Assembly (NCBI GenBank): GCA_034440635.1
Contig: JAOTON010001069.1
Coordinates: forward strand, 1-64,000
From: Lepas anatifera
Lineage: Eukaryota > Arthropoda > Thecostraca > Lepadidae
Length of the DNA: 64,000 nucleotides
Direction of reading: 5' to 3'
Positions 1-41,849 of this stretch are shown piece after piece. The notes beneath the pieces were generated by a model. It saw only the letters and a program-made list of their open reading frames with translations, made no database searches and was not told where the DNA came from. A program made the translations under genes and the position numbers. Each line of letters opens with the position of its first letter. Within the stretch, counting starts at the first letter, position 1.

Positions 1-2066
1 GAGGCCCTGCCAAGAAAAATACCGCGAAGCGGGACTTGAGCATTAAGTCTGCCGGGGAGGAAGGGGTCACTAGGGGTGATTTGTTATCCACACACGGTAA
101 GTTCTGGGGCAAATGAGATATCGATAGGATGGTTTCTGGGCACACAGGATCCTATGGCTATATCGCTTCAAATCGCGTTATGAAGGTGCACATTCACTTT
201 AACAAAATACCAGAACAAACAACATTTTATTTTTCAACAAACACTGCTCGCCATTTGATCACAACAGAGTTCCACAGAGGACTTGATGAACACGCCCGGT
301 CGCTACTAGCGCCCACCTTAGCTCACTGTGCGTGCGTGCATGCGTGCGTGTGCATGTGTGGGTGTGTCGAACGGGGGGGCAGGCGTAGCCGGCAGGTTGT
401 TGTTGTTGTTGTTCCCTCTGGGCCCTCAGCGAGGGCCATAGCCCAGGGCTCCCTGTGGCGGTAGTAGCCACCGGCCAAGGCCGCCACTAGGTCGTCGTCT
501 CGAAGCTGTTGTGGGTCTAGGTGGATTGATCCTGTCAAGCGCAGGCGGGTGCCAGCAAGGGACGGGCACCTCAGGAGGACATGCTCAGGCGTGTCCGCCT
601 CCTCGCGGCAGACTGCGCAGCGCGCGCGGGGCACTGCTTGTCTGGGCACTGCGCGCACTCCGGTGAGGGGTGACGACCGATTCGATTGAGATACTGGAGG
701 AACGGCCCCAGTGGCCGGCCCTCAGCTGGTGTATATCCGTTGCCTTGTCACGGTGCTCTCCGGCGTTGGGGGGCGGCAGGTGACCCCCATTATCCGCTTG
801 TAAAAGCCGTCCGGCCAGTCATCGCTCCACCTCTTAGTGGTGCTGCGGGCCACAGCCTTCGTGATGGTCCCGACGTCGACTGGCACGCTGAGCTGCGGTA
901 GGGCGGAAGCCTCCTTTGCCAGGTTGTTGGCCCTCTCGTTCCCCGCGAGTCCACAGTGGGCGGGAACCCACTGAAGGTGGATTTGTTGGCCGCGGGCTGT
1001 AATGGCGGAGAGAAGCCGCCAGATTTCCTGTCCCGCAGGCGAAGACTGGCCGCGGCACCCCGCCAGGGAGGAGAGCGCCGCCTGGGAGTCTGTGCAGACT
1101 ACCAGTGGCAGCAGTGCCGGGTCGCCCGTCAGCTGGATAAAGTCCTCCAGTGCGGCTTTCAGGGCGTTTAGCTCAGCCCGGGTGCTTGAGCATAGCTCTC
1201 CGGCCGCCGCACGAACTTCTCTGGTGTCACCGGAGGGGAGGACCAGGAGAGCTCCGCCGCCGCCCCGTATAGTGCCCCTCCACGGCGGATCCGTCTGACC
1301 AGATCCACGTGGCTTAGGTAGGTAGGCCGGCCAGGTGTTCCTCGGCCGCCACGCGACCTCACCGCCTCAGGGGCGGCCCGGCGGCCCGTGGGCCGATATC
1401 CAGTGTGATATCAACCCCGTTTCTCGTTGTCCAAGGTGGCGTGGCGACGACCAGGGGCTCCTCCACCTTGACGTCCGCTATGCCAGCCTCTCAGGGCCTC
1501 TCTCCCGGTTTCACGCCAGCCGGATGTGCCCAGTCGTCTCCGGGAGGTAGCCTCGGCGACGTCTCGAAGGGGGTCCCCAGCGGGGAGAGATACGGCCCGG
1601 CACTGCATGCGCGCCGAGAGCACTCGGCGCCTGGAACGGGCCGTTGGGAGTCCTGCTTCCGCCATGAGGGGGTCCGTAGGGGTAGACTGTGCGCAGCCCG
1701 TAACTGCCCGAGCTGCTGCTCCCTGTCCCCTGTCTACTGAGGTCGACATGGGAGTCGGAGGTCGCGGGGAGCCACGCCGCAGCGGCTAATTCTAGGGCTC
1801 GGCGGACGTAGCCGTTGGCTATGGTCCGCAGTTGCTTCTCACGCAGACCCCACGACCGACCGGTGAGCTGGCGGAGTTGCGCAATCCTCGGCTTCACTTT
1901 CTTCCTCAATGCATTGCAGTGTTCCCCAACGTGGAGAAGCCGGTCGAACGTCACACCGAGAAGTTTCAGGTGTGCTTGGCCGGTCACAGGGGTACCGGCG
2001 ACTCTGATCTGGATGTGTCTGGCATCGTGGGCCAAATGGGAGAGCACCAGAGCTTGCGTTGTGCTC
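1..2066 (-). mobile_element. Degenerate I/R1-like LINE, ORF2 C-terminal half
   Basis: Read on the minus strand, the fragment begins in the RT thumb (HLKLLGVTFDRLLHV near 1960-1920). It passes an RNase H start (WIWSDGS at about 1300) and ends with a Cys-His knuckle of the form CAVC..EADTPEHVLLRC (about 640-560). Several frameshifts separate these pieces, so it is dead. Its 5' truncation at about 2066 abuts the 31-bp array, suggesting insertion into that array. The exact 3' end is not defined; a (GTT)n tract lies at 399-411. The RNase H places it with the I/R1 group rather than CR1 or L1. Confidence 0.75.
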
Positions 2067-2076
2067 GGCTGTTTGG

Positions 2077-2332
2077 GGTTACTGACCGGGACTGCTCGGC
2101 TGTTTCGGGTTACTGACCGGGACTGCTCGGCTGTTTCGGGTCACTGACCGGGACTGCTCGGCTGTTTCGGGTTACTGACCGGGACTGCTTGGCTGTTTGG
2201 GGTTACTGACCGGGACTGCTCGGCTGTTTGGGGTTACTGACCGGGATTTTTCGGCTGTTTGGGGTTACTGACCGGGACTGCTCGGCTGCTTGGGGTTACT
2301 GACCGGGACTGCTCGGCTGTTTGCAGTGCCGT
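2077..2332. repeat. 31-bp minisatellite containing the PIGG donor site
   Basis: About eight copies of a 31-bp unit (TTACTGACCGGGACTGCTCG plus GCTGTTTGGGG). On the minus strand each unit reads CAGTCCCG/GTCAGTAA, identical to the exon end and donor used at 2304. The array therefore starts inside the exon and copies its 5' splice site. Confidence 0.9.
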
Positions 2333-2461
2333 GAGCGAGGCCAGCACCGGCGCCGCGTACGTGTGACAGGCGGTGAGGAGAACCGCAACCCAGGAGTAGT
2401 GGTGGGCCACACCCACATAGCCGGCTGACACGTCCACACTGGCCAGACTGTTGGAGTTGCC
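2304..2461 (-). CDS. PIGG: PIGG exon, GNSNSLASVD and following TM
   Basis: Joins MAAFFYM to GNSNSLASVDVSAGYVG, exactly the FFY..GNSN.IATVD.SAGFVG block near the C terminus of PIGG, then VAVLLTACHTYAAPVLASL. The acceptor is TTTTCCGGCAG at 2462. The donor CCCG/GTCAGTAA after 2304 lies inside the first unit of a 31-bp array. It ends in phase 2; one more exon (about 70 codons in relatives) should lie further left and was not found. Confidence 0.88.
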
Positions 2462-5400
2462 CTGCCGGAAAATCGCCGCACGTACCACTACGTACATTAG
2501 CTGCCGACAGTGATACCTACACACCAGTCATTGAGCCCTGCCGGACAGCCGCTTCACCCACACCTGGAGCGGTTACCGAGCCCTGCCGGACAGCCGCTTA
2601 CCCACACCCACACCTGGAGCGGTTACCGAGCCCTGCCGGACAGCCGCTTCACCCACACCTCGAACAGTTACCGAGTCCTGCCGGACAGCCGCTTCACCCA
2701 CACCCACACCTGGAGCGGTTACCGAGCCCTGCCGGACAGCCACTTCACCCACACCTGGAGCGGTTACCGAGCCCTGCCGGACAGCCGCTTCACCCACCAC
2801 CTGGAGCGGTTACCGAGTCCTACGACCACGTTTTACCCACACCTGGAGCGGTTACCTAGCCCTGCCGGACAGCCGCTCCACCCACACCTCGAACAGTTAC
2901 CGAGTCCTGCCGGACAGCCGCTTCACCCACACCCACACCTGGAGCGGTTACCGAGCCCTGCCGGACAGCCGCTTCATCCACACCCACACCTGGAACGGTT
3001 ACCGAGTCCTGCCGGACAGCCGCTTCACCCACACCTGGAGCGGTTACCGAGCCCTGCCGGACAGCCGCTTCACCCAAACACCCACACCTGGAGCGGTTAC
3101 CGAGCCCTGCCGGACAGCCGCTTCACCCACACCCACACCTGGAGCGGTTACCGAGCCCTGCCGGACAGCCGCTTCACCCACACCTGGAGCGGTTACCGAG
3201 CCCTGCCGGACAGCCGTTTCACCCACGCCTGGAGCGGTTACCGAGCCCTGCCGGACAGCCGCTTCACCCACACCTGGAGCGGTTACCGAGCCCTGCCGGA
3301 CAGCCGCTTCACCCACACCTGGAGCGGTTACCGAGTCCTGCCGGACAACCGTTTCACCCACCCGGGTACCATTTCCCGACCCCCCCCCACCCCAACTGAA
3401 CCGACCCAGCACAACACCCACACCTGGAGCGGTTACCGAGCCCTGCCGGACAGCCGCTTCACCCACACCCACACCTGGAGCGGTTACCGAGCCCTGCCGG
3501 ACAACCGCTTCACCCACACCCACACCTGGAGCGGTTACCGAGCCCTGCCGGACAGCCGCTTCACCCACACCCACACCTGGGGCGGTTACCGAGCCTTGCC
3601 GGACAGCCGCTTCACCCACACCCACACCTGGGGCGGTTACCGAGCCCTGCCGGACAGCCGCTTCACCCACACCTGGAGCGGTTACCGAGCCCTGCCGGAC
3701 AGCAGTTTCACCCACACCTGGAGCGGTTACCGAGCCGATACCAAACCACACATGCTGGCTGCCAAGACGTTATAGACCGGTCAAAACACCCACACATACG
3801 GAGGTACTCAACAGGCATCCAGGAAACGTATTTAGAACGAAGAGAAGTTAAGTGAAAGTTAAAGTGGTTATCCATTAGGAAGGCTAGTCGGCCTTCATGT
3901 GTTGGATATCATTGACGTACAACTGCGTCATTTCCACATCATCGAGTCACTGTACGTCTTTTCTGAGTTACTTTTCTGTTTTATCATTATTTCACGCGTG
4001 ACTATCTTCTTGGTCTATTTTTCGCAGCGGTTTTTGAAGCAGTTCACGTTCGGCGCATTCCGTACTGCTTCCGGTAACTCGTTCCAGTATTTTTAACTCG
4101 TATATTGAAAAATGTCTCCTGATTTCGAGCCTCGCTCTTCTGATTTACATTTGTCCTTCCCTCCGCACTACCTCGCCTTCTGCTCCTATGACCGAATTCT
4201 GGGTGGTAGTTGTCTGTTCTTCATTGATTATTTTAAACCATTCATCCTGCTCTACTTTGCTCCTATTTACAAAAAGTCCGTTCGACATTCTAACTCCAAC
4301 GCGTATATATCAGATTTCACATACATGAGTAAGCCTCCTCCTCTCCCCTTTGATGTGTCTTCTCTGTCTTTACGGACGAGTAATTGATACCCGTCAATAT
4401 TCAATAAGCTATCGTCTATTGATGAATTCGTCCAACTTTCCGTCAAAAAGACCAAGTCCGGATTTGACTGTGCTACCATAGCCTTCAACTCATTTTTCTT
4501 ACTTAACACAGATTGGCAATTTGTGTAAAACACAGTTATTATTGATTTTCTATCTTCACTTTCTCCTCCTCTCTGTCCGTCCAAACGATTCTTCTTCCCC
4601 GCTGCCCTACCACAATCTATCTTCCGTTTTTTCCCTCCCCTCTTGCCTTTTTTGTTTTTTTCTTCCGCTTCCTCCCTCCTTTCATCTTCTTTTTTCTTCT
4701 CCTTCTGTCTTTGCCTGGGCGTCAAATCAGGGGAAATGAAAACTTTCTTCCACCCCTCTCTCCTTGCCAGTTTTCTAGCATTGTTGAGTATTGTTTCCCT
4801 CTTTTCTCCATCCTTTACCTTGATTATCAGAGGCCTCGGCTTGCCATCTTCTCTAATCTTACCTGCTCTAAACTTGACCTCTACTTCCTCCTCCTCGACG
4901 TCTACACTTATATTCTCCCACAGATCTTTGACTTTTGCAGCGTCATCCCTGATCCTTGTTTTCGCCTCCTTCTCCTTACTCTCCTCTAATCCGTAAATGA
5001 CAAGGTTTTCGATCCGTTCGTCTCTGTCATTCAGTTCCTCTTTCATTTCTTCCTTTACTTCTTCCTTTGCTTTTGTCAATCCCGTCTCTACCTCCTTAAG
5101 GCTACCTTCACACTGCCCGAGCTTTCTCTCCAAGTTCGCTATCTTCTCCTTCAAGCCCTTGTTTTCCTTCTCCATGGTCCCAACTCTACTCTCCAGCTCC
5201 TTCATTCCTTTATTGAGCTTTCCCATAACTTTTCTACAAATCTTACATAGAAAGCCACTCCAACCGAGCATCTTCTCCGTTTTTAATATCTGGTCGAAAT
5301 AATCCTCACTTAATTCTTCGACGCAGTCCCTGTGCCACCACGTCTCACATAGGCCGCAAGAGATGGTCACTTGCCCCCTCGTGTAATTCAGATCACGTTT

Positions 5401-8400
5401 ACCGCACGGATATTTAGACATAATTGGTAATAGTATCTTCTGACCCAATTCACAGTTAAGTGTTTAAGTTCTTGCTGTATCAATTATTATTTCTCTGAAT
5501 GAGAAAAACAATTCAATGCACTCTATTTAACTTCCTCCCGAAAGACCTTGCCGCCGTTTCACGTGATTCAGAGAAAAAAATCAAGCGCTGCTTTCGATCA
5601 CCGATGAAGTTGAAAATATCTAAGTTTTAAAACTTCGCACGAAAAATCGAATATTTTGTTATCTATTTTCTCAATAGTTAAATGCGATGTCATAAAAACA
5701 TTTAGGTCAACAGATAGGAAATGTAATGCTCTTCCCATAGGATAAATTTTTAACCCCCGCAACCTTCGCACTCCGGTAAAAACCAACCCTTCTTTAGACC
5801 TCTATAAAACACGTCCTTCCCCTCCAGAACTGCACACACTGATTCACTGAAGATTTAATCGTTTCGTGTGAACTAAGGCCCGAGAGACTGTTACGCCGGA
5901 GCCATACACTGCCAGTGCAGCGGCGTCAGTGCAAAGTGGTCACCGTGACCAAGGAGAAATAAACGCTACCGCCCGGCATACCGCGGCCACTTCTCCCAAA
6001 CTTCTACCATATTTGCTTGCTAATAGTTTTAGCTATGCCAAGCACACCATGCTGGGATATACCTAAAACGACATGGGTTTCATGTAATACCCTTTAATGG
6101 GTCGAGAGTAGCTTGATATCCGCGATGGCACGTGCATCAAATGCCATGTTTGGGCCAGGAATTAAATTGTATCCTTAAACAAGCATCTTGACCGGGCTTC
6201 GTGCGTTTTAATTCAGAACATGGTAATTTCTGGGGAACGTAGACATTTTTCATACTATTTCTCAACTGATTACAAGAGTCCGAGTTTCGGTGGTGCATTT
6301 GATATTTTGGGCGGAAACCTCTCACAACCCCCCATTTAGCAAACCAACACAAGGGGTTTTTGTTTGTTTCAGACAACATATAAGCCAAGTTAATAAAAAT
6401 ACTAACAGCGAATTCTCAATGACCTACATAAAAAACATGATTAAAATTGACTAATACGGGATTGTCCATGCTATTCCAAGGTCTGATTGCATATGCCCTG
6501 GCGGGGTACCCACCATGTAGAAGAAGGCGGCCATGCCGGCCCAATGCATGAACAGCGCGATCCTAAGCGGGCTCTGAGGTCGCGCCGCCAGCCACCGCGA
6601 TACCAGGTCCAGCAGGCGACAGCAGAGCGCCCAGGCTGGCAGGTTGTGGGGCCGCACCAGCAGCGCACACAGCAGTCTCCAGCCGACCAGCAGCCTGGCC
6701 AGCGGCTGCCGGTGCCGGCCCAGCGCCGTCCACCACAGCAGGCTGGCGTACAGGCCGCGCGCCGCCCAGCGGCCCACCGCCGGCCACACCGGCGGCGCCG
6801 GCCACAGCCGGCCGTCCGACAGACCGTGCACCAGCACACCGCCCGCGGCCAGCTGCAGCCAGCCCTGCTGCCGCGTGGGGTTGAGGCGGGCCAGAGACAG
6901 CAGACCAGCCAGCCAGCCCACCTGCAGCCAGCCGACGCCGGCCTCCGAGCCCAGCCAGTCGCCGACGTCGGGCAGGTGCAGCCACCGGTCGCCCGTCTGA
7001 TTCCAGCGCCGCAGTACGCCGCCCAGCACGACCACACACAGGCAGACGTCCACCAGGCCACCGGCGCACCGCAGCTGGCGGTACTCCAGGAACAGCAGCG
7101 CCAGCCACAGGCTGGCCGACAGGAAGTACCAGGTCTGGTGTTCCTCCTCTATGAAGCTGGTGGCGGCGAGGCTGACCAGATGGAGAAGGGAGCCGAGCAG
7201 CAGCACGGCGACCAGGGGCTGTCGGCCATACCACATCGCTGTACAGCCGCCATAACTACGGCTACACCACTCATCAGACCGCATCAGGGTCTCACCAAGT
7301 GTTTGCGGATCTCGCGGGTCTAGCCTTTTCGGGTCTCATCTATAATACTGATTTAGATCTTGAAATCATTTTTGCACAATATCATGTATCTAGATAGCAA
7401 AAAGCATAGTTTTAAATTGCATTCTCCATCACACACGGGTCTGGCTAATTATGTCGTGAATAACACCATATGCCCGAGGAAGTGTATATTCGTTGTCCAC
7501 GCTATTGATGTTCATTTAGTTCATGAATAGACGCCAACACTTGCAAAATAACATTAATGGCGTGAAAACGAAATAAATTAAATGAATCCTTACCGTGGGC
7601 CTAATGAACTCGAAAAGTGCGTCCGCTTCTTCAGAGCCCGCAGCTTTTCCTTCCGAAAACACCTGAGCTTGAAAGATTGCCTCCAGGTCGTCGTTTTGAA
7701 AATTACACTTGCCATAGGCACTGTCCTTGTTAATAGTTGGATACATAAGGGCAACAAGTTTATATAATGGATGAGGAAGTGCCTTGAAGAGGCCAGCCTT
7801 AAGGCCTTTTGAGTAGCAGGCAGCCCGACGTTCGAACACGGCCTGTTTGTGTGTGCGCGACCTGCTGGGGCCGGCCCAGGTGACATCAGTGTACACCACA
7901 CGCTTGCCGGAGTCCTGCAGGGCCTGCCAGCGTCTCCGCGCTACTGCCGTCAGAGCAAAGGTCGCTTCGGCGACCACCCGCAGCCAGTTGGCGGCTACCA
8001 AGGCAGCCACTGTAGACTCCAACCAGCTCAGCCGGCCGTCTCCCGGCAGCAGACACAGCAGCAGCAGCGTCGCCACCACACAGCACAGCGCCAACACGCC
8101 GCCCCACTCCGGCACCAACTGCCTCCACGCACTGCCGACGTCCAGCTGCGAGCCCACCAGAGTCTGCCGACCAGCGCAGAAACACAGTGACACCGCTGAC
8201 ACTCACAGCAGCACAGCACTGCCACTGACACAGCAGCACAGCACTGCCACTGACACAGCAGCACAGCGTCACCGACACTCACAGCAGCACAGCGTCACCG
8301 ACACTCACAGCAACACAGCGTCATCGACACTCACAACAGCACAGCGTCACCGACACTCACAACACAGCGTCACCGACACTACAGCAACACAGCGTAACTG

Positions 8401-11400
8401 ACACTCACAGCAGCACAGCGTCACCGACACTCACAACAGCACAGCATCACCGACACTCACAGCAACACGGCGTAACTGACACAGCAGCACAGCGTCACCG
8501 ACACTCACAGCAACACAGCGTCACCGACACTCACAGCAGCACAGCGTCACCGACACTCCAACAGCACAGCATCACCGACACTCACAGCAACACGGCGTCA
8601 CCGACACTCACAACGGCACAGCATCACCGACACTCACAGCAACACGGCGTCACCGACACTCACAGCAACACAGCGTAACTGACACTCACAACAGCACAGC
8701 GTCATCGACACCCACAGCAGCACAGCGTCACCGACACTCACAACAGCACAGCGTCACCGACACTCACAACAGCACAGCGTCACCGACACTCACAACAACA
8801 CAGCGTCACCGACACTCACAACAACACAGCGTCACCGACACTCACAGCAACACAGCATCACCGACACTCACAGCAGCACAGCGTCACCGACACTCACAGC
8901 AGCACAGCGTCACCGACACTCACAACAGCACAGCGTCATCGACACTCACAACAACACAGCGTCACCGACACTCACAACAGTACAGCGTCACCGACACTCA
9001 CAACAACACAGCGTCACCGACACTCACAGCAACACAGCATCACCGACACTACAGCAGCACAGCGTCACCGACACTCACAGCAGCACAGCGTCACCGACAC
9101 TCACAACAGCACAGCGTCATCGACACCCACAGCAGCACAGCGTCACCGACACTCACAGCAACACAGCGTCACCGACACTCACAACAGCACAGCGTCATCG
9201 ACACTCACAGCAACACAGCGTAACTGACACTCACAACAGCACAGCGTCACCGACACTCACAGCAGCACAGCGTCACCGACACTCACAGTAACACAGCGTC
9301 ACCGACACTCACAGCAACACAGCGTCACCGACACTCACAACAGCACAGCGTCATCGACACTCACAGCAGCACAGCGTCACCGACACTCACAACAGCACAG
9401 CGTCATCGACACTCACAACAGCACAGCGTCATCGACACTCACAGCAACACAGTGTAACTGACACTCACAGCAGCACAGCGTCACCGACACTCACAACAGC
9501 ACAGCGTCATCGACACTCACAGCAGCACAGCGTCACCGACACTCACAACAGCACAGCGTCATCGACACTACAGCAACACAGTGTAACTGACACTCACAGC
9601 AGCACAGCGTCACCGACACTCACAGCAGCACAGCGTCACCGACACAAACAACAGCACAGCGTCACCGACACTCACAGCAGCACAGCGTCACCGACACTCA
9701 CAGCAACACAGCGTAACTGACACTCACAGCAGCACAGCGTCACCGACACTCACAGCAGCACAGCGTCACCGACACTCACAGCAACACAGCGTCATCGACA
9801 CTCACAACAGCCAGCATCACCGACACCCCGACAGCGTCCGACCTCGCGACAAGCGTAACTGACACTCAGCAGCACAGCGTCACCGACATCACAGCAACAC
9901 AGCGTAACTGACACTCACAGCAGCACAGCGTCACCGACACTCACAACAGCACAGCATCACCGACACTCACAGCAGCACAGCGTCACCGACACTCACAGCA
10001 ACACAGCGTAACTGACACTCACATCAGCACAGCGATGCCACTGAACCCTCACAGCAACACCACTCACACTCACAGCGTCATCACTGACACAGCAGCGTCA
10101 CTTACACAGCTCATCAAAACAGCACCACTGACACACACAGCGCAGTGTGCATGATCTGGGCGTTGAAACAATGACGTCAGCGTTACTATGTCGCAGGTGT
10201 GCTACACTTAGCCTACAGCCTGAGCCTTTGGGGCAGTCCGTATTTTTTAATGGGTTTGCCAACAAAATTGCTTGGATTTCCTTGAAAGTGACCTTTTTTG
10301 AAGGCCTCTGGTCCTCTTCTACACAGACCTGGTCGAGTTTTCTCCACAGCAAATTTGGAATTTTTTTATTATAAAATTTGAACAAACCTGGGATTCTAGG
10401 GTCTAGGGGACAACCTCTTTCAACAACCGAATAGCCCCGCCTGACAAAGAAAACAACTGCCACGACAACCAAGGGGTCGCCGCTCAGACGGAGAAGATGG
10501 TGTCGGACCACCAGCCAGACCGCAAGGAACCAACTCTTCCCGAGTGCTTCGAAGACCACCCAGCAAGTTTAATCATAAAGTAAAAACAATTCCGAGACAA
10601 TTCTATGCTATGTACAATCCAGGTGGTACCCGGTCGATTTGTCCTGGAACGCCCCGGATAACAGCTGGTGTGACTGGGACTTGAGACAAGCAGGCAGCAG
10701 GGCGCGCTGCCGCTCCCCTCAGGACAGTACCAACCAAGGCAATGATGGCCAGGCCCAGGGTGTTAAGACAAGCAGGCAGCAGGGCGCGCTGCCGCTAACC
10801 TCAGGACTGTACCAACCAAGGCAATGATGGCCAGGCCCAGGGTGTTAAGACAAGCAGGCAGCAGGGCGCGCTGCCGCTCCCCTCAGGACAGTACCAACCA
10901 AGGCAATGATGGCCAGGCCCAGGGTGTTAAGACAAGCAGGCAGCAGGGCGCGCTGCCGCTCCCTCAGGACAGTACCAACCAAGGTAATGATGGCCAGGCC
11001 CAGGGTGTTAAGACAAGCAGGCAGCAGGGCGCGCTGCCGCTCCTCTCAGGACAGTACCAACCAAGGCGATGATGGCCAGGCCCAGGGTGTTAAGACAAGC
11101 AGGCAGCAGGGCGCGCTGCCGCTCCCCTCAGGACTGTACCAACCAAGGCAATGATGGCCAGGCCCAGGGTGTTAAGACAAGCAGGCAGCAGGGCGCGCTG
11201 CCGCTCCCCTCAGGACTGTACCAAACAAGGCGATGATGGCCAGGCCCAGGGTGTTAAGACAAGCAGGCAGCAAGGCGCGCTGCCGCTCCCCTCAGGACAG
11301 TACCAAACAAGGCAATGATGGCCAGGCCTCAGGGTGTTAAGACAAGCAGGCAGCAGGGCGCGCTGCCGCTCCCCTCAGGACTGTACCAACCAAGGCGATG

Positions 11401-14400
11401 ATGGCCAGGCCCAGGGTGTTAAGACAAGCAGGCAGCAGGGCGCGCTGCCGCTCCCCTCAGGACAGTACCAACCAAGGCGATGATGGCCAGGCCCAGGGTG
11501 TTAAGACAAGCAGGCAGCAGGGCGCGCTGCCGCTCCCCTCAGGACAGTACCAACCAAGGCAATGATGGCCAGGCCCAGGGTGTTAAGACAAGCAGGCAGC
11601 AGGGCGCGCTGCCGCTCCTCTCAGGACTGTACCAACCAAGGCGATGATGGCCAGGCCCAGGGTGTTAAGACAAGCAGGCAGCAAGGCGCGCTGCCGCTCC
11701 CCTCAGGACAGTACCAACCAAGGAAATGATGGCCAGGCCCAGGGTGTTAAGACAAGCAGGCAGCAGGGCGCGCTGCCGCTCCCCTCAGGACTGTACCAAC
11801 CAAGGCGATGATGGCCAGGCCCAGGGTGTTAAGACAAGCAGGCAGCAGGGCGCGCTGCCGCTCCCCTCAGGACAGTACCAAACAAGGCAATGATGGCCAG
11901 GCCCAGGGTGTTACGACAAGCAGGCAGCAGGTCGCGCTGCCGATCCTCTCAGGACTGTACCAACCAAGGCAATGATGGCCAGGCCCAGGGTGTTAAGACA
12001 AGCAGGCAGCAGGGCGCGCTGCCGCTCCTCTCAGGACAGTACCAACCAAGGCGATGATGGCCAGGCCCAGGGTGTTAAGACAAGCAGGCAGCAGGGCGCG
12101 CTGCCGCTCCCCTCAGGACTGTACCAACCAAGGCAATGATGGCCAGGCCCAGGGTGTTAAGACAAGCAGGCAGCAGGTCGCGCTGCCGCTCCTCTCAGGA
12201 CTGTACCAACCAAGGCAATAATGGCCAGGCCCAGGGTGTTAAGACAAGCAGGCAGCAAGGGCGCGCTGCCGCTCCCCTCAGGACTGTACCAACCAAGGCA
12301 ATGATGGCCAGGCCCAGGGTGTTAAGACAAGCAGGCAGCAGGGCGCGCTGCCGCTCCCCTCAGGACTGTACCAACCAAGGCAATGATGGCCAGGCCCATG
12401 GTGTTAAGACAAGCAGGCAGCAGGGCGCGCTGCCGCTCCCCTCAGGACTGTACCAACCAAGGTAATAATGGCCAGGCCCAGGTTGTTAAGACAAGCAGGC
12501 AGCAGGTCGCGCTGCCGCTCCTCTCAGGACTGTACCAACCAAGGCAATAATGGCCAGGCCCAGGGTGTTAAGACAAGCAGGCAGCAGGGCGCGCTGCCGC
12601 TCCCCTCAGGACTGTACCAACCAAGGCAATGATGGCCAGGCCCAGGGTGTTAAGACAAGCAGGCAGCAGGGCGCGCTGCCGCTCCCCTCAGGACAGTACC
12701 AACCAAGGCAATGATGGCCAGGCCCAGGGTGTTAAGACAAGCAGGCAGCAGGGCGCGCTGCCGCTCCCCTCAGGACTGTACCAACCAAGGCAATGATGGC
12801 CAGGCCCAGGGTGTTAAGCAAGCAGGCAGCAGAGCGCGCTGCCGCTCCTCTCAGGACTGTACCAACCAAGGCGATGATAGCCAGGCCCAGGGTGTTAAGA
12901 CAAGCAGGCAGCAGGGCGCGCTGCCGCTCCCCTCAGGCCTGTACCAGCCAAGGTAATGATGCCCAGGCCCAGGGTGTTAACACGCGCACTGGAGGGGGGC
13001 CTCGGAGGCCCCCCACCTGTTTTTCCGAGGTGGCCGGAGAACCGCTTGTAGCCGAAAAACGAAACGTGGCCACATTTAACAAAATTTAATAGCGCGTCGA
13101 TTGGTGAAGACTTTTTGAAAATCGGCCGAAAATTTTTTGACTTATAGACTTTCAAAGTCAGACCTGCATTTTGAGATCGCCGTAAACGCGCGGTCGGACC
13201 AGTTAGCTTGCATTGAAGACCGAGTGGTGACGCCATAACGTCATATAAGCGGGATTATATGTCAAGGTCACTTCACATGAAAGTCAAGGTCAAAGGTCAC
13301 AGGTCAAGGCCATATCTGCACTTTCAAGGTCACTGACCACTGTGCGCCCGGCCAAATGACGTTACCCGGTCTGACATATATTATGATATGACGTCATCGG
13401 TAGGGTACCCCAATACAAAGGTCAAGGTCAATAGTCAAGGTCAAAGGTCATTTTGAAAGGTCAATCCTCATTTCCCGTCAAACAGTGGCTACAGTGTTAG
13501 TCAAAGTGTAAATATTTAGTATACCATATGGTGACCTTAAAGGTCAATGACCTTGAATGACCTTGACCCAAAAGTTGTGGGGAAGCCTCTTTGGGACCTC
13601 TTCCCTATGAACCTTGTCTGCCTTTAGCTTATTCCCGTGATTTTCCCGCATAATCACAGCATTTATCAATCGATTCCCAGCATGGCCAATATTTGACCTT
13701 TACGACCTCGTTTGACCTTGAAGATATTGACCTAGGTCAATGAAAATTGGTCATCATGTAGATCACCATAACCCCCACCCACCTACCAAGTGGCGTCTTT
13801 CTAACCCTCTTAGTTTCCGAGGTCTTAGGGGGCTTACCAGGCCCCCTCTCCAGTGCGCGTTAGTGCCAGACCCCCTCCAGTGCGGGTGTTAAGACAAGCA
13901 GGCAGCAGAGCGCGCTGCCGCTCCCCCAGGAGTGTACCAACCAAGGTAATGATGGCCAGGCCCAGGGTCTTAAGACAAGCAGGCAGCAGGGCGCGCTGCC
14001 GCTCCCCCAGGAGTGTACCAACCAAGGTAATGATGGCCAGGCCCAGGGTCTTAAGACAAGCAGGCAGCAGGGCGCGCTGCCGCTCCCCTCAGGACAGTAC
14101 CAACCAAGGAAATGATGGCCAGGCCCAGGGTGTTAAGACAAGCAGGCAGCAGGGCGCGCTGCCGCTCCCTCAGGACAGTACCAACCAAGGAAATGATGGC
14201 CAGGCCCAGGGTGTTAAGACAGGCAGGCAGCAGGGCGCGCTGCCGCTCCTCTCAGGACAGTATCAACCAAGGAAATGATGGCCGGGACCAGCAGCGTGCT
14301 GGCCCAAGGTTTTAAGACAAGCAGGTAGCAGGGCGCGCTGCCGCTCCTCTCAGGACAGTACCAACCAAGGCAATGATGGCCAAGCCCAGCAGCATGGTGA

Positions 14401-15857
14401 CCCAGTCGTGGCCGGATGCCACCGCCAGTAGTTGCGCCTGCAGCCGCCGCACGACACCACCGGCGGCGTCGGTGGCCTCACTGACGCGACCCGCAGCCAG
14501 CAGCGCCTCCGCGCGGCTCAGAGTTGCCGCATAGTCGTCTGTAAACACGCCACATGCGAGAATATCTCAACCACTTGGGAGAGACTCGGAACTGAAGCGT
14601 GAAGCTTCTGAACTGGGCCCAGCTTTAACCCAAGCCCAGGCGACAGGAGGATGCGTTGGCGGATCCAAAACAGGCAGATATAGCAAGGAGCCAGGCCGAG
14701 GTATTGGTGAAGGGGAAGGCGACGAGGGGGAGGAGGAGGAGGAGGAGGTGGAGACCATAAAATTGCCAGCTTCACGGCAGCGGACCAGAGAGCGGGGGGC
14801 ACAAACTATACAGGTCAATCGCAAATAACCAATTTTCGCACACTAATTCCGCGATATTTTCCATTTTAACTGATCTTTGGGCAAAGGAGTACTGTGAGCT
14901 CTGAAGAGCCGCGTACCACATCGCCCCATTTGATTAAGAGTCCCAGTTATACCTGTTTACAGCCTCTAAATACGACTCACCATCAACAACAGCCTCAACA
15001 TATTTGAATGGATCTCAACATACTTGCTCAACATACTCAAAATACTTGGCGTGGATTTCCGAAAATCATTGGGGGTGCCCGAATTTGAAGATGATAAATA
15101 GCCACCATGCAAAGATTAATAGCATGATATGATTTGGTTTTGGCCTTACATCCGCCTTTTGAAGCAAATCAAACCAGTTTAAAGGTCTGAAAATGATAAA
15201 CAATGAAATTCAAAGGAACTTCAATAAGACAACGTTTCATTGGGGGTGCCCGGGCACCCAAGATATATAGATCCACAACCCTGCTGGTATCGCCAGACAC
15301 GGAAAAGTGGAACAATGATTAGTACTGATTCCAACTACCTGTCAAGATCAGCCCAAGCAGCTTAGGGCCGGTCTCAAACTAAATGATACTAGCCATTTAG
15401 CAACCTCTGCCACCATACGGCCGCTCCAGGGCATGCTTTGCCAGCTCACAACAAGGAAATGCCAGCCACTAACAGTTCAGAGAATGGCGGCGCGGGCGTC
15501 ACTGGCCTTGCCGCTGGAGGTGGGTCCGGCGGCGGTAGAGCTGCAGCAGCTGGCAGCCGTTCTGCAGCAGGGCGTGCGCCAGCCGCCGCCCTCCCAGCAG
15601 TCGCACCACCTCACTGATCAGCGCGCCCACACTGTCCGCCGGCGGCGGCACCCCGGCCAGCGCCGCCAGCGTGGGCGCGATGTCCACCTGACGCACCTCC
15701 CCACTCCCGGCCACCTGAAACAGCACAGATACCCGCCTAAAGCACCTCCCCACTCCTCGCCACCTCACACTCCACCCAACTGCTGGCGGGGCGTGTTGAG
15801 GGGAAGGGCACTCGCCCCTCCCTACTGAGTTATTTCTCTTAAAACTTTTTCGCATTT

Positions 15858-15894
<37 letters not shown>

Positions 15895-18800
15895 ACCTCT
15901 TGCTGCTGAGCGAAGCCAGCGCTGACGAAGTGCAGAGCTGTGCGCAGTTCGGCAGCAGATGCTCCACCGTGACTACCCGCGTCGCTCATGCCGTGATCGC
16001 CGCAGACCACCAGAACCGGGGCCGCCGCGGGCTGGTGACAGGCACAGCGTACAGACGGTCGCACCATAGCATAATAGCCAGCCTACTGAGCCCCCCCTCC
16101 CCCTACATCCAGAAACGAGGCCGAGCCATAACACAATTGTCAGTCTACTGAACCCCCCCCCCCACATCCAGAAACGGGGTCTAGCCATAACACAATCACC
16201 AGCCTACTGAGCCCCCACCCCAAACATCCAGAAGCGGGGCCGAACCATAACACAATCGCCAGCCTACTGAGCCCCCTCCCCACACATCCAGAAACGGGGC
16301 CGAACCATGACACAATTGTCAGTCTACTGAGCCCCCCCCAACACAGTCAGAAACAGGGCAGAGCCATGACAAAATCACTAGCCTCCTGACCCCCCCCCCC
16401 CACATCCAGAAATGGGGCCGAGAAATAACACAATCACTAGCCTACTGAGCCCCCCACATCCGGCACTGGGTGCTAGCTTTATGGACGATCTAGATATAGG
16501 CCAGGCTTCGGAGCTCCCACTGCGGTAAAACTCTTTAAAATGATAAGAGTGCAGCCACCAGGTGACTGCAGCGTCACCAGACAGCCGCGGCGGTGTGCTG
16601 CTGCTCACCGGCTGCTGGTTCAGAGCCCTGTACACCTTCTCCATGATGCGACTCATCTCGTCCAGCTTGGCCGGCACCAGGGGACTGGTCGGTCCCGCTA
16701 GGTGGCCAATGTGGTCCAGTCCCACGTAGTGCATCACCAACAGGTCCCAGTCGTCCCGCGCCAGCTCGTCGGCGAGGTGCCGCGTCACGTTATCGTCCAC
16801 CTGTCAGCGGGCAACGTTCCCGTGTAGCTGACAGTGCCTAATGCTACCATGTATCTGACAGCACGTAACGTTACCATCACCCTGACAAAACGCAACACGT
16901 CACCGTGTATCTGACAGTTTGTAAAGTAACCGTGTATCTGGAAGTGCGTTACGTTGCACCTGACACCGCGTTACGTTACAAACCATCTGGGACATTTCAT
17001 CATATACCTAGGTCAGCGTCACGTTACAAATCATATGCGACATGTCATTGTCTGAGTCACTTGATCGTCAACCTGACAGCGAGTCACGTTACAAACCATC
17101 TGGGACATGTCATCGTGTACCGGGTCACTCGATCATCCACCTAACAGCGAGTCACGTTACAAACCATCTGGGACATGTCAAAACACATAAGGCATGCAGA
17201 ACGATGATTTTGTCCTGAAATTGACTACGGACAACTGAATTATATATACATTGTAAACCCTTTGCTGCAATTGATGAATAACTTTTGCTGCTTTGCCAAG
17301 GATTTGCAGGATATAAGCAACAAATCGGGAAAAATCTACCCACGCTTTGGCACCGTGCGGCCTCAAAAAGTTCAGCTTCGCCAAAAAATATGTGCAAAAA
17401 TGGAACCAGCGCGCCAATTCACATCAGGACAGCTGAAGTCGGGAGCAATGCAGTTCTGAAAGTTTTAAAAAGACCCTATCGTGCATGTACCTGATAAGTG
17501 AAGCACTGTCATTCCCAAAAAATATATTTCAAGGTGTGTCTAGCGACACCAAAATGATCCTTCTCAAATACATTGCAGTTCAATCACTTTTCTTTATTTA
17601 CAATAAAAAAGCGTTTGAACGAAATGAATATAAAAGCGGAATATTTCTAATAGTAGCAAGTAAAGGAAAGCTGAACAATCGTAGTTAAACAAATTGGTTG
17701 GATATTTGTGCATCTAAACTTTTGAAAATATTGATTTGTTTAGCTTTGTGAAGGACCAATGACAGATATTTCCAACTTAAGCAATTTATGCAGAAATCAG
17801 TAGGCGTATAGTAAAATGACTGCAAACAGCCGATTGGAAAGTAGATGTTCTTGGCAGGTACGTTTGTTTTAAAAAAATCATGAGTAATTTGGGCATAGTA
17901 TATCGTCCCACATAAGACATAGATGTGACAAAATCTGAATTTTCACTTTCGCATTCTACCCCACACCTTAGAAGCCATGGCAATGCCCATTTGTGATCAA
18001 AACAGTAACACTAGTTAGAACAGCCCGGGCCCCATACCTCCGTATAGTCATTGACGAAGAACGAATGGACGCCCTCGAAGCGGACGAAGCCATCAGGGAA
18101 CAGCTTGAGCCAGGTGTCATCGCCATAGAAGACAGCGCGGCGGCCAGCCAGCCGCAGCTGCCGCAGCAGGCTGTCCTGAGCCAGGCGCTGGCCTTCGTAG
18201 TTGTGCAGCATGTCCAGAAACTCGGGCACAGTGCCAGTGGTCAGTGCCTGAGGGCGGAGCCAGAGCAGCCGTCAGACACTGGTCAGTGCCTGAGGGCGGA
18301 GCCAGAGCAGCCGTCACAGACACTGGTCAGTGCCTGAGGGCGGAGCCAGAGCAGCCGTCACAGACACTGGTCAGTGTCTAGGGCGGAGCCGAGCAGCGTC
18401 ACGACACTGGTGTGCCTGAGGGCGGAGCCGGCCGTCCAAACTGGTCGTGTCTAAGGGGGAGCCAGAGAGCGTCACAGACACTGTCAGGCCTCAGAGCAGA
18501 TAAGACACAGCCGTCACAGACACTGCTCAGCGCCTCAGAGCAGATACGATGCAACCGTCACAGACACTGCTCAGCGCCTCAGAGCAGATACGATGCAACC
18601 GTCACAGACACTGCTCAGCGCCTTAGAGCAGATACAGCCGTACAGATACTGGTCAGTGTCTGGGCGGAGCCGGCAGCCGTGCTGTGGCGGGGGCAGCCGT
18701 CACAGACACTGGTCAGTGTCTAAGGGCAGAGCCAGAACAGCCGTCACAGACACTGGTCAGTGTCTAAGGGCGGAGCCAGAGCAGCCGTCACAGACACTGG

Positions 18801-19890
18801 TCAGTGCCTCAGAGCAGATAAGACACAGCCGTCACAGACACTGCTCAGCGCCTCAGAGCAGATAAGACACAGCCGTCACAGACACTGCTCAGCGCCTCAG
18901 AGCAGATACGACACAGCCGTCACAGACACTGCTCAGCGCCTTAGAGCAGATACGATGCAACCGTCACAGACACTGCTCAGCGCCTCCGGGCGGAAACAGA
19001 ACAGCGGTCACACGCCGCTGCACAGTCAATCTCTGTCCCCAGCAAACGCTGCTTTCTAAACATAAACCTAAAATATCAGGCCTTCCAACGGAGTCAATAC
19101 CCCCAGCAACCTGCGGCAAGTGTCACTGTCAGGGGTCGAGTCTATTTTGCGACTTAAAAAATAGAAGTCAAATATCGCCCAAAATAAATACCATGTTCCA
19201 AAGGTCATGCTGACAAAAATATGCCAACATGGCTCAGACCAGTGAGTATTTCGATCCAGATGGATTGTAATTTCATTCAATATAACCAGTTTCTTACATT
19301 TGCGAATATTGGACACAAAATGCCCGCACTTCTTATTCCCGTTTTAACTTATTGAAAACATTATCTTGAAAGAAGTGATGCCGAAGATAAAGCTAGAGTC
19401 GGATCCGATTTCTAATGGTAGAATTCCGTGCCGAACCCAACAAAGCCCCACAATCCCGGTGTAAAGGCCTTGAAAATAACCAAATGTGGTTACATAGGCA
19501 CCCGTGAAATAACACCGCAGCACTCGTGGGCCTAGTAACACAGAGGAGAATGCTGAGACCATGCTGATAGACTCGACAACACTCGCGGTTTTCACAGACC
19601 ACGCCTCGTTCGTTTTGTTGAGACAAAACCTACACACCTGGAAACATATATGAATGAGAAAGGGCTCGACATCGAGACTGACTGATGCTGGTGCACACAC
19701 AGAGCCCACCTTGACACGTGGCAGGGTGACGGTAGGCGGGTCTGCTAGAGCCACAAACGCTCTCAGATGGCCCAGCTCATCCATCCTGGATAGGAAGGGT
19801 ATCGAGCCGTTGGCCACCAAGTCGGCCCGCAGGGCGTCGATGACCATCCACACGATACGAGGGGTTGCACCTTCATGACCCGTGTCGACC
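2304..19890 (-). CDS. PIGG: PIGG-like GPI ethanolamine phosphate transferase 2, nine of its exons (gene-level entry)
   Basis: PIGG adds ethanolamine phosphate to the second mannose of the GPI anchor in the ER membrane, working with PIGF. Exons on the minus strand, in order: 19890-19710, 18247-18038, 16800-16609, 16031-15897, 15714-15507, 14538-14362, 8195-7594, 7218-6514, 2461-2304. Phases agree at every junction (0,0,0,0,1,1,0,0), which strongly supports the model. The alkaline-phosphatase-fold residues are visible: VIDALR, the PPTVTLPR nucleophile loop, GLDHIGH and GDHGM. A multi-TM region follows, containing EEEHQTWYF, RPHNLP and GNSNSLASVD as in animal PIGG. The N-terminal signal-anchor exon and the last C-terminal exon are not seen; they may lie in 19.9-50 kb and left of the window. 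Introns carry splice-junction-derived minisatellites. Family assignment rests on remembered PIGG motifs, not on an alignment. Confidence 0.9.
2525..3745. repeat. 42-48 bp minisatellite upstream of PIGG exon 2461
   Basis: About 25 copies of a unit built from ACACCTGGAGCGGTTACCGA and GCCCTGCCGGACAGCCGCTT, with a variable CCCACA spacer. One non-repeat patch lies at about 3360-3418. On the minus strand each unit has TCCGGCAG/GGC, matching 11 nt of the real acceptor at 2461. The long forward ORF through the array is a repeat artefact. Confidence 0.9.
4267..5421 (-). CDS. Non-LTR retrotransposon ORF: PHD finger, coiled coil, RNA-binding-like domain and endonuclease start
   Basis: From the ATG at 5421 the protein begins MSKYPCGKRD and has a PHD-like Cys/His cluster (C..CETWWHRDC, then LCKIC). 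A long charged coiled coil follows, roughly residues 70-140. Next is a region like LINE ORF1 RRM domains (RIENLVIYGLEES, KVFISPDLTPRQR), then a KKKEDERREE basic tail. It then passes without a stop into an apurinic endonuclease start (TNCQSVLSKKNEL, DLVFLTESW, RGGGLLMYVKSD). A TAA at 4267-4269 ends it. This is a 3'-truncated CR1-like element sitting in a PIGG intron. Coding density suggests a fairly recent insertion. Confidence 0.8.
   Translation of the reverse strand: MSKYPCGKRDLNYTRGQVTISCGLCETWWHRDCVEELSEDYFDQILKTEKMLGWSGFLCKICRKVMGKLNKGMKELESRVGTMEKENKGLKEKIANLERKLGQCEGSLKEVETGLTKAKEEVKEEMKEELNDRDERIENLVIYGLEESKEKEAKTRIRDDAAKVKDLWENISVDVEEEEVEVKFRAGKIREDGKPRPLIIKVKDGEKRETILNNARKLARREGWKKVFISPDLTPRQRQKEKKKEDERREEAEEKNKKGKRGGKKRKIDCGRAAGKKNRLDGQRGGESEDRKSIITVFYTNCQSVLSKKNELKAMVAQSNPDLVFLTESWTNSSIDDSLLNIDGYQLLVRKDREDTSKGRGGGLLMYVKSDIYALELECRTDFL
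5450..6450. other. PIGG intron, no gene seen
   Basis: AT-rich sequence between the LINE ORF1 and the next PIGG exon. The only ORFs are short and without recognisable motifs. I see no RNA gene or tandem repeat here. Confidence 0.5.
6514..7218 (-). CDS. PIGG: PIGG exon, multi-TM core
   Basis: 235 codons, phase 0 to 0. It contains SFIEEEHQTWYFL, the PIGG/PIGO/PIGN signature, then RRWNQTGDRWLHLPD, many hydrophobic helices and LLVRPHNLPAWAL, ending in MHWAGMAAFFYM. The donor is ATG/GTGGGT. The acceptor is taken as CCGACAG at 7219; a slightly earlier one (GTACAG at 7239) would need a different phase. Base composition is about 70% GC by eye, unlike the flanking introns. Confidence 0.9.
7594..8195 (-). 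CDS. PIGG: PIGG exon, completes TM1 and encodes TM2
   Basis: The start at 8195 (GTGAGTGTCAG/CGGTGTC) continues the TM1 helix as AVSLCFCAG in the required phase. Two hydrophobic stretches follow: GGVLALCCVVATLLLLCLL and VAALVAANWLRVVAEATFAL. A strong donor, ACG/GTAAGG, closes the exon at 7594 in phase 0. However, the last 100 or so codons (7594-7890) are less GC-rich and match nothing I know in PIGG. The true end could be earlier, for example near 7890 at a GTG/GTGTAC site, also phase 0. Confidence 0.75.
8196..10080. repeat. 26-bp minisatellite abutting PIGG exon 8195
   Basis: About 70 copies of a 26-bp unit, CACAGCGTCACCGACACTCA plus CAGCAG, with CA/AA and C/T variants. The exon-junction sequence CAGTGACACCG/CTGACACTCACAGC is the same unit with an extra CTG, which supplies the AG of the acceptor. 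The array therefore begins at the 3' splice site. Confidence 0.92.
10098..10559 (-). other. Unrecognised ORF in PIGG intron
   Basis: An open frame of about 150 codons between two arrays. It is hydrophobic at the start (VVVAVVFFV), then basic. I recognise no domain; it could be chance or the remnant of a mobile element. It does not fit any PIGG segment. Confidence 0.2.
10683..12976. repeat. 82-bp minisatellite, main block
   Basis: About 28 head-to-tail copies of an 82-bp unit. On the minus strand each unit encodes GLAIIALVGTVLRG-like peptide and carries TTGGTTG/GTACTG. That is, each unit is a copy of the last 26 or so bases of PIGG exon 14538-14362 plus its donor and 46 or so bases of intron. 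Units differ by single substitutions and rare indels. Confidence 0.93.
12977..13892. mobile_element. TTAA-flanked MITE (piggyBac-like) inside the 82-bp array
   Basis: Flanked by TTAA on both sides (12977-12980 and 13889-13892). Inverted ends are CACGCGCACTGGAGGGG and its imperfect complement CCCCTCCAGTGCGGGTG. The empty site, GGGTGTTAAGACAAGC, is present in every other array unit, so the insertion boundaries are certain. No transposase is present. The interior is packed with AGGTCA/TGACCT half-sites and relates to copies at 49.2-54.9 kb. Confidence 0.9.
13541..13553. promoter_or_regulatory. Perfect IR1 nuclear-receptor palindrome (ecdysone-response-element consensus)
   Basis: AGGTCAATGACCT is two AGGTCA half-sites inverted with one base between, matching the EcR/USP consensus RGKTCANTGAMCY. 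It lies in a MITE. Many TCAAGGTCA and AGGTCA half-sites surround it (13262-13760). Whether it is bound in vivo cannot be judged from sequence. Confidence 0.5.
13893..14361. repeat. 82-bp minisatellite, exon-proximal block
   Basis: Five to six more copies of the 82-bp unit between the MITE and the exon ending at 14362. The last copy before the exon runs directly through the true donor. One unit (about 14281-14312) carries an unrelated patch. Confidence 0.9.
14362..14538 (-). CDS. PIGG: PIGG exon, stalk helix and start of first C-terminal TM segment
   Basis: Encodes DDYAATLSRAEALLAAG, a helical stalk, then DWVTMLLGLAIIALV, the start of the first TM helix after the luminal domain. The acceptor is GTGTTTACAG at 14539. 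The donor TTGGTTG/GTACTG leaves phase 1, which fits the next exon. The last 26 or so exon bases plus this donor are the core of the 82-bp minisatellite that follows downstream. Confidence 0.85.
14539..15506. other. PIGG intron, unexplained
   Basis: Intron between exons 15714-15507 and 14538-14362. It holds a GA-rich run (about 14715-14750) and AT-rich unique sequence. GGGGGTGCCCG occurs twice (15070 and 15242), as in hAT-like debris. No gene is seen. Confidence 0.4.
15507..15714 (-). CDS. PIGG: PIGG exon, end of catalytic domain
   Basis: Starts VAGSGEVRQVDIAPTLA after GTGCTGTTTCAG and contains PPPADSVGALISEVV, matching the QTDVAATLAI...P.P.DSVG segment of PIGG. The 3' edge is less certain. 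A GC donor, CAAG/GCCAGT, ends the exon in phase 1, and the next exon requires phase 1. The nearby GT (GGCCA/GTGACG) would break frame. A small intervening exon is another possibility. Confidence 0.8.
15690..15771. repeat. Two-copy duplication spanning the PIGG acceptor at 15714
   Basis: GCACCTCCCCACTCC-CGGCCAC at the exon edge is repeated 51 bp upstream in the intron as GCACCTCCCCACTCCTCGCCAC. This looks like the first step of the same process that built the longer arrays at other exons. Confidence 0.7.
15861..15891. repeat. (AG)n microsatellite at a donor site
   Basis: About 15 AG dinucleotides ending at the donor of exon 16031-15897, so the intron begins GTAATT(CT)n on the coding strand. 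Confidence 0.95.
15897..16031 (-). CDS. PIGG: PIGG exon with GDHGM and GSHGG motifs
   Basis: Forty-five codons, phase 0 to 0. VLVVCGDHGMSDAGSHGG supplies the last Asp-His metal pair and the following conserved His. The acceptor is CCTGTCACCAG/CCCGCGG. The donor GAG/GTAATT runs directly into a (CT)n tract on the coding strand. The exon's first bases, CGGCCCCGGTTCTGG, recur in the upstream array at 16055-16460. Confidence 0.92.
16055..16460. repeat. 60-bp array copying the acceptor region of PIGG exon 16031
   Basis: Six to seven units of about 60 bp, each with CCAGAAACGGGGCCGAGCCA, TAACACAATC, CAGCCTACTGAG and a C-run. The true exon edge has CCAGAACCGGGGCCG, then about 38 extra bases including the acceptor, then CCATAGCATAATAGCCAGCC. 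The units are therefore the junction with an internal deletion. Confidence 0.85.
16609..16800 (-). CDS. PIGG: PIGG exon with DNNVTRH and GLDHIGH motifs
   Basis: Sixty-four codons, phase 0 to 0. The exon begins VDDNVTRHL and contains LLVMHYVGLDHIGHLAGP, whose Asp and His are metal ligands of the alkaline phosphatase superfamily, as in PIGG/PIGN/PIGO. The acceptor is CGCTGACAG/GTGGACG and the donor is CCG/GTGAGC. A degenerate array (16801-17172) repeats the acceptor immediately upstream. Confidence 0.92.
16801..17172. repeat. Degenerate array copying the acceptor of PIGG exon 16800
   Basis: Diverged units of 30-75 bp with TCACGTTAC, ATCTGACAG and GTCAACCTGACAGCG. The junction ATCGTCCAC/CTGTCAGCG matches ATCGTCAAC/CTGACAGCG at 17069-17086 at 16 of 18 positions, and again near 17131 (ATCATCCAC/CTAACAGCG). 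Confidence 0.75.
17173..18037. other. PIGG intron, AT-rich, no feature recognised
   Basis: Unique-looking AT-rich intron sequence between exons 18247-18038 and 16800-16609. Only short ORFs are present; no repeat structure or RNA gene is seen. Confidence 0.4.
18038..18247 (-). CDS. PIGG: PIGG exon, luminal catalytic domain part 2
   Basis: Seventy codons, phase 0 to 0. The exon starts ALTTGTVPEF and ends FFVNDYTE, with FYGDDTWLKLFP in the middle; this matches the GDETW.KLFP block of PIGG. The acceptor CCGCCCTCAG/GCACTGACC is repeated many times just upstream in the 42-44 bp array at 18248-19020. The donor is GAG/GTATGG. Confidence 0.92.
18248..19020. repeat. 42-44 bp array copying the acceptor of PIGG exon 18247
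   Basis: About 18 units of GGTCAGTGCCTGAGGGCGGA plus GCCAGAGCAGCCGTCACAGACACT. A derived subtype replaces the middle with CTCAGAGCAGATAAGACA. On the coding strand each early unit reads CCGCCCTCAG/GCACTGACC, identical to the real 3' splice site and the first nine exon bases. Confidence 0.93.
19710..19890 (-). CDS. PIGG: PIGG exon with first metal-binding Asp and nucleophile Thr
   Basis: The exon encodes IVWMVIDALRADLV and then PPTVTLPRVK, the first metal-binding aspartate and the catalytic threonine loop of the GPI-EPT phosphatase-like domain. The acceptor is CCTTTCGCAG before 19890; the donor AAG/GTGGGC follows 19710. The first base completes a codon from an unseen upstream exon and the last codon is complete. 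This is the most 5' exon I can place. No minisatellite adjoins it. Confidence 0.9.
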
Positions 19891-41410: not shown

Positions 41411-41849
41411 GTTGCGACACCACTTGTACACGAGCTCGTTGAGACCGGACCCTTACAGGCCTAGAGCCTCCACACGTCTGTATGCTTCAACTTCAACAAC
41501 TTCAACTACTTTGCACACTGGATCCGAACCATGCCAACCCTCCCTTAGCCACAATGTTGAAAGCACTGCTTCCCATCACTTAGGTACTTACCTGTAATGG
41601 CTGAAGCTATTGGGATCAGACACTTTTTTGGGGACAGGGAAATATCCCCTCAAAAATACATAGCAGCCCAATATATATGAAATACTGATCAACTGACAAC
41701 CGACTAGACCTGCCACCGGTTTGGCCATTTGCAAAACTTACTATATTAATTTAACGAGTCTTGAGGGGTGCTGCTTAAAACGCAAGAATCCGGCAATTAC
41801 ATCCTTACCACGGTTCCTATTGACCCCGGTCACGCTCACCAGAGGCGCT

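Follow-up and report, generated by a model that had tools for sequence, protein, structure and literature searches.

The closest described systems are the mirages of amphioxus, minisatellite-like tandem repeats that span exon-intron borders in Adh3, troponin C, the globins BflGb6 and BflGb9, and PGBD5 (passages of PMC3087553 and PMC3902484). According to those passages, mirages are found at 5' and 3' boundaries, have units of 10-72 bp (Adh3) up to ~160 bp, keep the AG or GT in many, not all, copies, and vary in length between haplotypes, and RT-PCR suggested that splicing is undisturbed (PMC3087553; PMC3902484). The polyubiquitin gene UBC has tandem dual-specific AGGT sites, and its units are whole coding monomers that are variably spliced (PMC10809524). 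Here we consider repeat arrays in the genome of the barnacle Lepas anatifera that are built on exon-intron borders. These border arrays are real, well supported and present in several genes of one genome; since the structure has already been described as the amphioxus mirage, the kind is not new, but the lineage is.

The window, the whole stretch of DNA that was analysed, is 64,000 nucleotides long and is contig C1009:1-64000 of an assembly of 1.044 Gb in 2126 contigs. On its minus strand lies PIGG (Pfam PF01663 and PF19316), for which the top protein match, from Amphibalanus amphitrite, has 51% identity over 99%; the PIGG composite gave no hit in the PDB. The exons were set by homology, reading frame and GT/AG, with uncertainty over the donors of E and G and over the acceptor of exon H, and the exon frames match those of homologues except for single-base breaks. 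Such breaks, judged against homologues, are seen in MRPS26 exon 3 (window ~57512), LEPROTL1 (C1009 ~64061) and the PIGG last exon (C933 259977-260027), and suggest assembly indel noise. Exon I (GNSNSLASVD...TAEQSR), identified by Pfam PF19316 and homology, is at 2304..2461 on the minus strand, and the N-terminal exon, also on the minus strand, is at 41593..41686 (tblastn match 41597-41686; donor read by eye). Intron 1 is therefore 19891-41592. It contains arrays away from its edges: with the N-terminal exon at 41597-41686, degenerate arrays at ~24.2 kb and 35.5-39.6 kb are far from the ends of intron 1. The last exon of PIGG was located on another contig, C933.

A preliminary description of this DNA had placed seven arrays at PIGG exon edges, and all seven lie there, the arrays as found by TRF and the edges as given by the exon models; an eighth edge, 15714, has just two copies, also as claimed. 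All of these arrays are on the minus strand, and in what follows a slash marks the junction. At the donor 2304 a 31-bp unit, repeated 8.5 times (2062..2323), consists of the last 20 exon nt plus GTCAGTAACCC of the intron. The acceptor 2461 has a ~45-bp x 25 array (2461..3736), with TCCGGCAG/GGC in the unit and ~3 exon nt, and the acceptor 8195 has a 26-bp x ~70 array (8195..10116). The 82-bp array of the donor 14362 is in two parts, a proximal one (13884..14404) whose unit is 28 exon nt (AIIALV) plus the donor, and a distal one of 28 copies (10684..12980); between them is an inserted element (12981..13883, no strand assigned) that has inverted ends CGCGCACTGGAG and related stretches on contig C933. 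At the acceptor 15714 there are two copies of the acceptor plus 28 exon nt (15694..15765), recognised by the junction and exon-only tests described below. The acceptor 16031 has a 59-bp x 6.6 array (16031..16455) with exon letters like CGGCCCCGGTTCTGG in the unit, the acceptor 16800 a degenerate 27/68-bp array (16800..17180) with a unit like CTGTCAG/GTGGACGATAACGTGAC (VDDNVT), and the acceptor 18247 a 44-bp array of 17 copies (18238..19012) with the unit CTCCGCCCTCAG/GCACTGACCA (ALTT). A microsatellite, (AG)15 at window 15861-15891, lies a few intron bases from the donor of exon D.

Do the units contain the neighbouring junction? For each edge, 20 intron plus 20 exon nt were scored against the edge's own array minus the proximal unit, with 3000 random 40-mers of the window, taken outside arrays, as the null. 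The scores of 75 (2304), 26 (2461), 48 (8195), 75 (14362), 34 (15714), 35 (16800) and 61 (18247) were each equalled by 0/3000, and the score of 21 at 16031 has p=0.0107. The central claim of the preliminary description, that the unit contains the junction beside it, is thus borne out: the similarity exceeds that of all the random sequence at seven of the eight edges, with 16031 at p=0.011. The margin at 2461 is thin, 26 versus a null maximum of 25, and the unrelated junction of MRPS26 exon 4 (CTGTCCGGCAG/G) scores 30 on the 2461 array, above PIGG's own 26, which makes 2461 the least specific edge. In a stricter, exon-only test, 30 exon nt were set against 2532 other exonic windows. No control reached the score (0/2532) at 2304, 14362, 15714, 16031 or 16800, though with 16 nt the result at 16031 is weaker (0.056). 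At 8195 the score is reached by 1.9% of controls (p 0.019) and at 18247, where the unit has just 10-13 exon nt, by 8%; at 2461, where the unit holds the acceptor and ~3 exon nt, it is reached by 59%, and the edge fails this test.

Many copies keep the splice dinucleotide. With the true site excluded, it is found in 7/7 extra copies at 2304, 32/33 at 14362, 16/16 at 18247, 6/6 at 16800, 22/23 at 2461 and 1/1 at 15714, a total of 84; with the true site included, GT is present in 8/8 copies at 2304 and 33/34 at 14362, and AG in 23/24 at 2461. The dozens of decoy splice sites that had been proposed for the gene are therefore there at these six edges, but not at 8195, where AG is clear in 3/68 copies (the true one included), partial in 8 and absent from 57, nor at 16031, where AG is in register in 0/6 intronic copies.

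How closely do the arrays follow splice edges? After merging, the contig has 22 arrays with a period of 12 or more, no fewer than 2.5 copies and a score of 80 or above; 25 splice edges were used, 18 from PIGG, six from MRPS26 and one from LEPROTL1. An array end lies within 75 bp of 10 of the 25 edges, versus 0.93 expected (binomial 9.6e-9), and within 15 bp of seven, versus 0.40 expected. A Fisher combination over eight intronic arrays, a set outside which the intron 1 arrays fall, gives 8e-8. A cruder shift test, in which positions inside arrays are also scored as hits, gives P=0.17, 0.12 and 0.05 at 15, 35 and 75 bp. Over the whole contig, 10/22 arrays are at a splice edge and 12/22 are elsewhere. 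Four of the 12 (10684, 17018, 18694 and 51342) are extensions of an edge array or have the same unit as one, and the remaining eight are at 24238, 35497, 37023, 37882, 38197, 38418, 45265 and 63031; intron 1 of PIGG accounts for six of these eight. The concentration at exon edges that had been described holds for the edges, well above expectation, but it is tempered by the 12 arrays off edges and by the weak shift test.

Is the pattern a gene-specific quirk or a genome-wide habit, the two possibilities raised at the outset? At the last exon of PIGG, on C933, a ~46 bp unit made of 8 intron and ~38 exon letters occurs 25 times, counting the exon's own copy; AG is present in 25/25 copies and AGGT is aligned in 20/25, and the first 40 exon nt score 74 versus a null maximum of 27. 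Two further arrays were noticed on this contig. A GC-rich 39/78-bp array (C933:259040-259812) lies just beyond the end of the PIGG last exon, at a coding border with no known splice site, and a 29-bp x 40 array lies just before the acceptor of what is, by eye, the probable last coding exon of a plus-strand coiled-coil gene (L007 ~2050-2200; C933 ~257.1 kb). None of the ten C933 open frames scanned with Pfam gave a match at E 0.01.

Just past the window edge is a gene that we take to be LEPROTL1, from its match to the human sequence (tblastn E 5.7e-37). It has 34-bp units ending TGTTTTGTTGCAG/G that abut the acceptor 64198, and its junction scores 38 (0/3000). In MRPS26, identified by Pfam PF14943, TRF found two arrays on the plus strand: a 29-bp array (51342..57422) that stops 10 bp before the exon 3 acceptor (57433) and is split by a ~5.6 kb insert, and a 32-bp x 21 array (59526..60189) that lies 51 bp before the exon 4 acceptor (60241). 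The junction p values are 0.057 and 0.30, the junction being absent from the second unit, and in the exon-only test neither unit has exon letters. The insert (window 51448-57020) has the ends CAGGGTTGGCA and TGCCAACCCTG, with ACTGAGAC on both sides; by eye it is hAT-like, and its apparent target duplication is indistinguishable from the repeat unit. The window also has, at 61280-62383, an open frame whose product is DUF7064-like; PF23212 is present in some relatives of this product. The frame and a protein from a short assembled contig are 98% identical over 87%, and proteins of Pollicipes and Amphibalanus match it at 62% identity (88% covered).

The CCT chaperonin genes were sampled through the best 30 of 54 exon matches, which comprise 69,277 unique bases, 91 covered match edges and 9 arrays. 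Five of the nine arrays are at match edges, all of them acceptors, and the other four are not at an edge; the placement P is 0.008 at 20 bp, 0.053 at 60 bp and 0.127 at 100 bp. At C624 there are 12 copies (its own included, some with small indels) of the acceptor plus the DNA for VGDGTTSVIVLT, which contains the GDGTTSV motif, and at C112 the unit joins the acceptor to DGRLLAGAGACEM. With the exon letters by themselves the score is 60 at both C624 and C112, against null maxima of 41 and 35 from a null without the tested exons. Acceptor letters are repeated at C1922 (junction score 41, 0/3000) and C1578a (31, 1/3000), and the array at C1578b merely abuts its edge (score 15, reached by 52% of the null); the units of these three have no significant exon part by the exon-letter test. 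With an array at just 5/91 CCT match edges, PIGG is unusually dense. It seems clear, then, that the array habit is present in several unrelated genes, with exon letters in PIGG and two CCT genes and acceptor letters in LEPROTL1 and two more CCT edges. The choice between quirk and habit thus leans towards a habit of several genes, namely LEPROTL1, PIGG with its last exon on C933, and CCT, the count being limited to these loci.

Which came first, the exon letters or their intronic copies? The columns of ALTT(G) at 18247 and VD.NVT at 16800 show little or no variation among six animals, with proteins from barnacle, insect, Daphnia, annelid and priapulid, and PVLV at 16031 is common to PIGG here and in Amphibalanus. 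The CCT motif GDGTTSV is conserved in the family. For some units, then, the exon letters that are repeated code for residues conserved among animals, which makes the exon the older and the copies in the intron its derivatives. At 2304, 8195, 14362 and 15714 the repeated peptide is too poorly conserved to show polarity.

What process accounts for these arrays? The preliminary description proposed that exon-intron borders had been duplicated in tandem again and again and that the extras had stayed in the intron, and the junction tests and conserved exon letters make this the best reading. We think it quite probable that the arrays are mirage-type minisatellites, that is, border segments that were duplicated in tandem, expanded, and tolerated by outermost-site splicing, in several unrelated genes. 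A short segment across the border would be duplicated in tandem, and the copies would expand and homogenise like any minisatellite, by slippage or unequal exchange. Splicing would stay at the outermost, exon-proximal site, as homology and the reading frames suggest; the extra copies would then fall in the intron, where they would be nearly neutral, and the transcript would stay readable. GC-rich exon edges probably seed arrays oftener than AT-rich introns do, and arrays within exons may be purged by selection, the edges being where seeding and tolerance would meet. The GC content is 0.63-0.67 in exons, 0.48-0.68 in the PIGG and CCT edge arrays, 0.44 in the other PIGG and MRPS26 introns, and 0.38-0.64 in the four non-edge CCT arrays. 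The 16800 array, at just 0.48, counts against GC seeding.

One would think that such a process would treat the two ends of an intron alike. The edges with arrays, however, are 14 acceptors (seven of PIGG, MRPS26 exon 3, LEPROTL1 and five of CCT) versus 2 donors (p=0.004), or 11 versus 2 (p=0.022) without MRPS26 exon 3, C1578a and C1578b. This acceptor bias is unpredicted by a symmetric neutral model and unexplained by GC seeding. It would be expected if duplication were coupled to splicing or transcription, with 3' splice sites as mutation hotspots (through R-loops or lariat handling) and introns copying their own ends. The same idea would accommodate the units at 2461, C1922, C1578a and LEPROTL1, which are acceptor letters with little or no exon and for which exon GC alone is an insufficient explanation. 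Against it, arrays also occur off splice sites and just past the PIGG last exon (C933:259040-259812), and the edge arrays mostly have an exon-like GC that fits seeding by composition; we regard coupled duplication as unlikely. A related issue is how the true acceptor is chosen. Over the 60 bases before the AG, the true site and the nearest decoy are 97% identical at C624, 97% at C112, 94% at 18247 and 87% at the PIGG last exon, and 68% at 16800, 66% at 8195 and 44% at 15714; at 2461, LEPROTL1 and C1922 a simple scan for a decoy upstream copy found none. At C624, C112 and 18247 the two sites also share most of the first exon bases, so that short-range sequence hardly distinguishes them. Where true and decoy acceptors are nearly identical, the choice must rest farther off, probably in the downstream exon. 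A more sweeping proposal is that in this barnacle lineage 3' splice sites are genome-wide tandem-duplication hotspots tied to splicing or transcription, that introns grow by copying acceptors, and that at the best-kept arrays, where the nearest decoy matches 94-97% of the 60 bases upstream, the spliceosome must pick the last of many acceptors by exon definition alone. This too seems improbable to us.

It might also be supposed that the arrays are what is left of introns born when coding sequence was duplicated in tandem in the genome, a route proposed in the amphioxus globin paper (PMC3087553), and the true acceptors at 16800, 15714, the PIGG last exon and CCT C624 do read AG/GT. Yet it is mostly one intron end that is repeated, and the introns also contain inserted elements and a good deal of other sequence; we give such an origin very little credence. 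Least credible of all, to the point that we would be surprised to find it correct, is that these are ordinary intronic minisatellites that happen to lie near exons, or an assembly artefact. The weak shift test and the apparent indel noise of the assembly, in MRPS26 exon 3, LEPROTL1 and the PIGG last exon, might be cited for it, but chance is contradicted by the junction, exon-only, placement, PIGG last exon and CCT tests. As to artefact, the copies are not identical to one another, and insertions interrupt two of the arrays. Moreover, C933:262772-272736 overlaps window 1-9997, with ~98% identity in two non-array flanks and 95.4% over the whole overlap, and this contig end also has the arrays of 2304, 2461 and 8195; as C933 comes from the same assembly, its support is not fully independent. 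C933 ends inside the 26-bp array, and the overlapping ends probably represent two haplotypes, at a point where the repeat broke the assembly. The 2304 array has 8 copies in each, and the lengths of the 2461 array are 1204 versus ~1095 bp, yet a probe gives 25 copies in both, and assembly noise may be responsible.

How, then, do mirage-type arrays in a barnacle compare with the systems described elsewhere? Among the matches listed from the open-licence literature we found no such arrays reported for barnacles or any other arthropod, a result with little bearing on subscription journals, and the passages matched by term in two barnacle genome papers (PMC8917513; PMC11331182) leave them unmentioned. 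Like UBC, the barnacle has repeat units with AG/GT, as at the PIGG last exon, but its units are fragments left in introns. In intron gain by tandem genomic duplication, as presented in PMC4974935, the duplication likewise spans a splice-competent AGGT region; in the barnacle, by contrast, existing introns are lengthened, and no new intron is shown. The arrays offer a concrete route for intron lengthening and a supply of ready-made splice sites, and at CCT C624, CCT C112 and PIGG 18247 they amount to a natural experiment on splice-site choice.

The likeness to amphioxus mirages is closer. Barnacle units span the exon-intron boundary, with exon letters clear at five of the eight window edges, the PIGG last exon, and CCT C624 and C112, the others being weaker or acceptor-only; both types of boundary are hit, and many units, not all, keep the AG or GT. 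The differences are that the host is an arthropod, that copies number up to ~70 versus 3-6 in BflGb6, and that the arrays, which are biased to acceptors, are at 9 of ~20 edges of one gene, PIGG, and in several unrelated genes. Mirages, described in a few genes of amphioxus, thereby gain a second and distantly related animal lineage.
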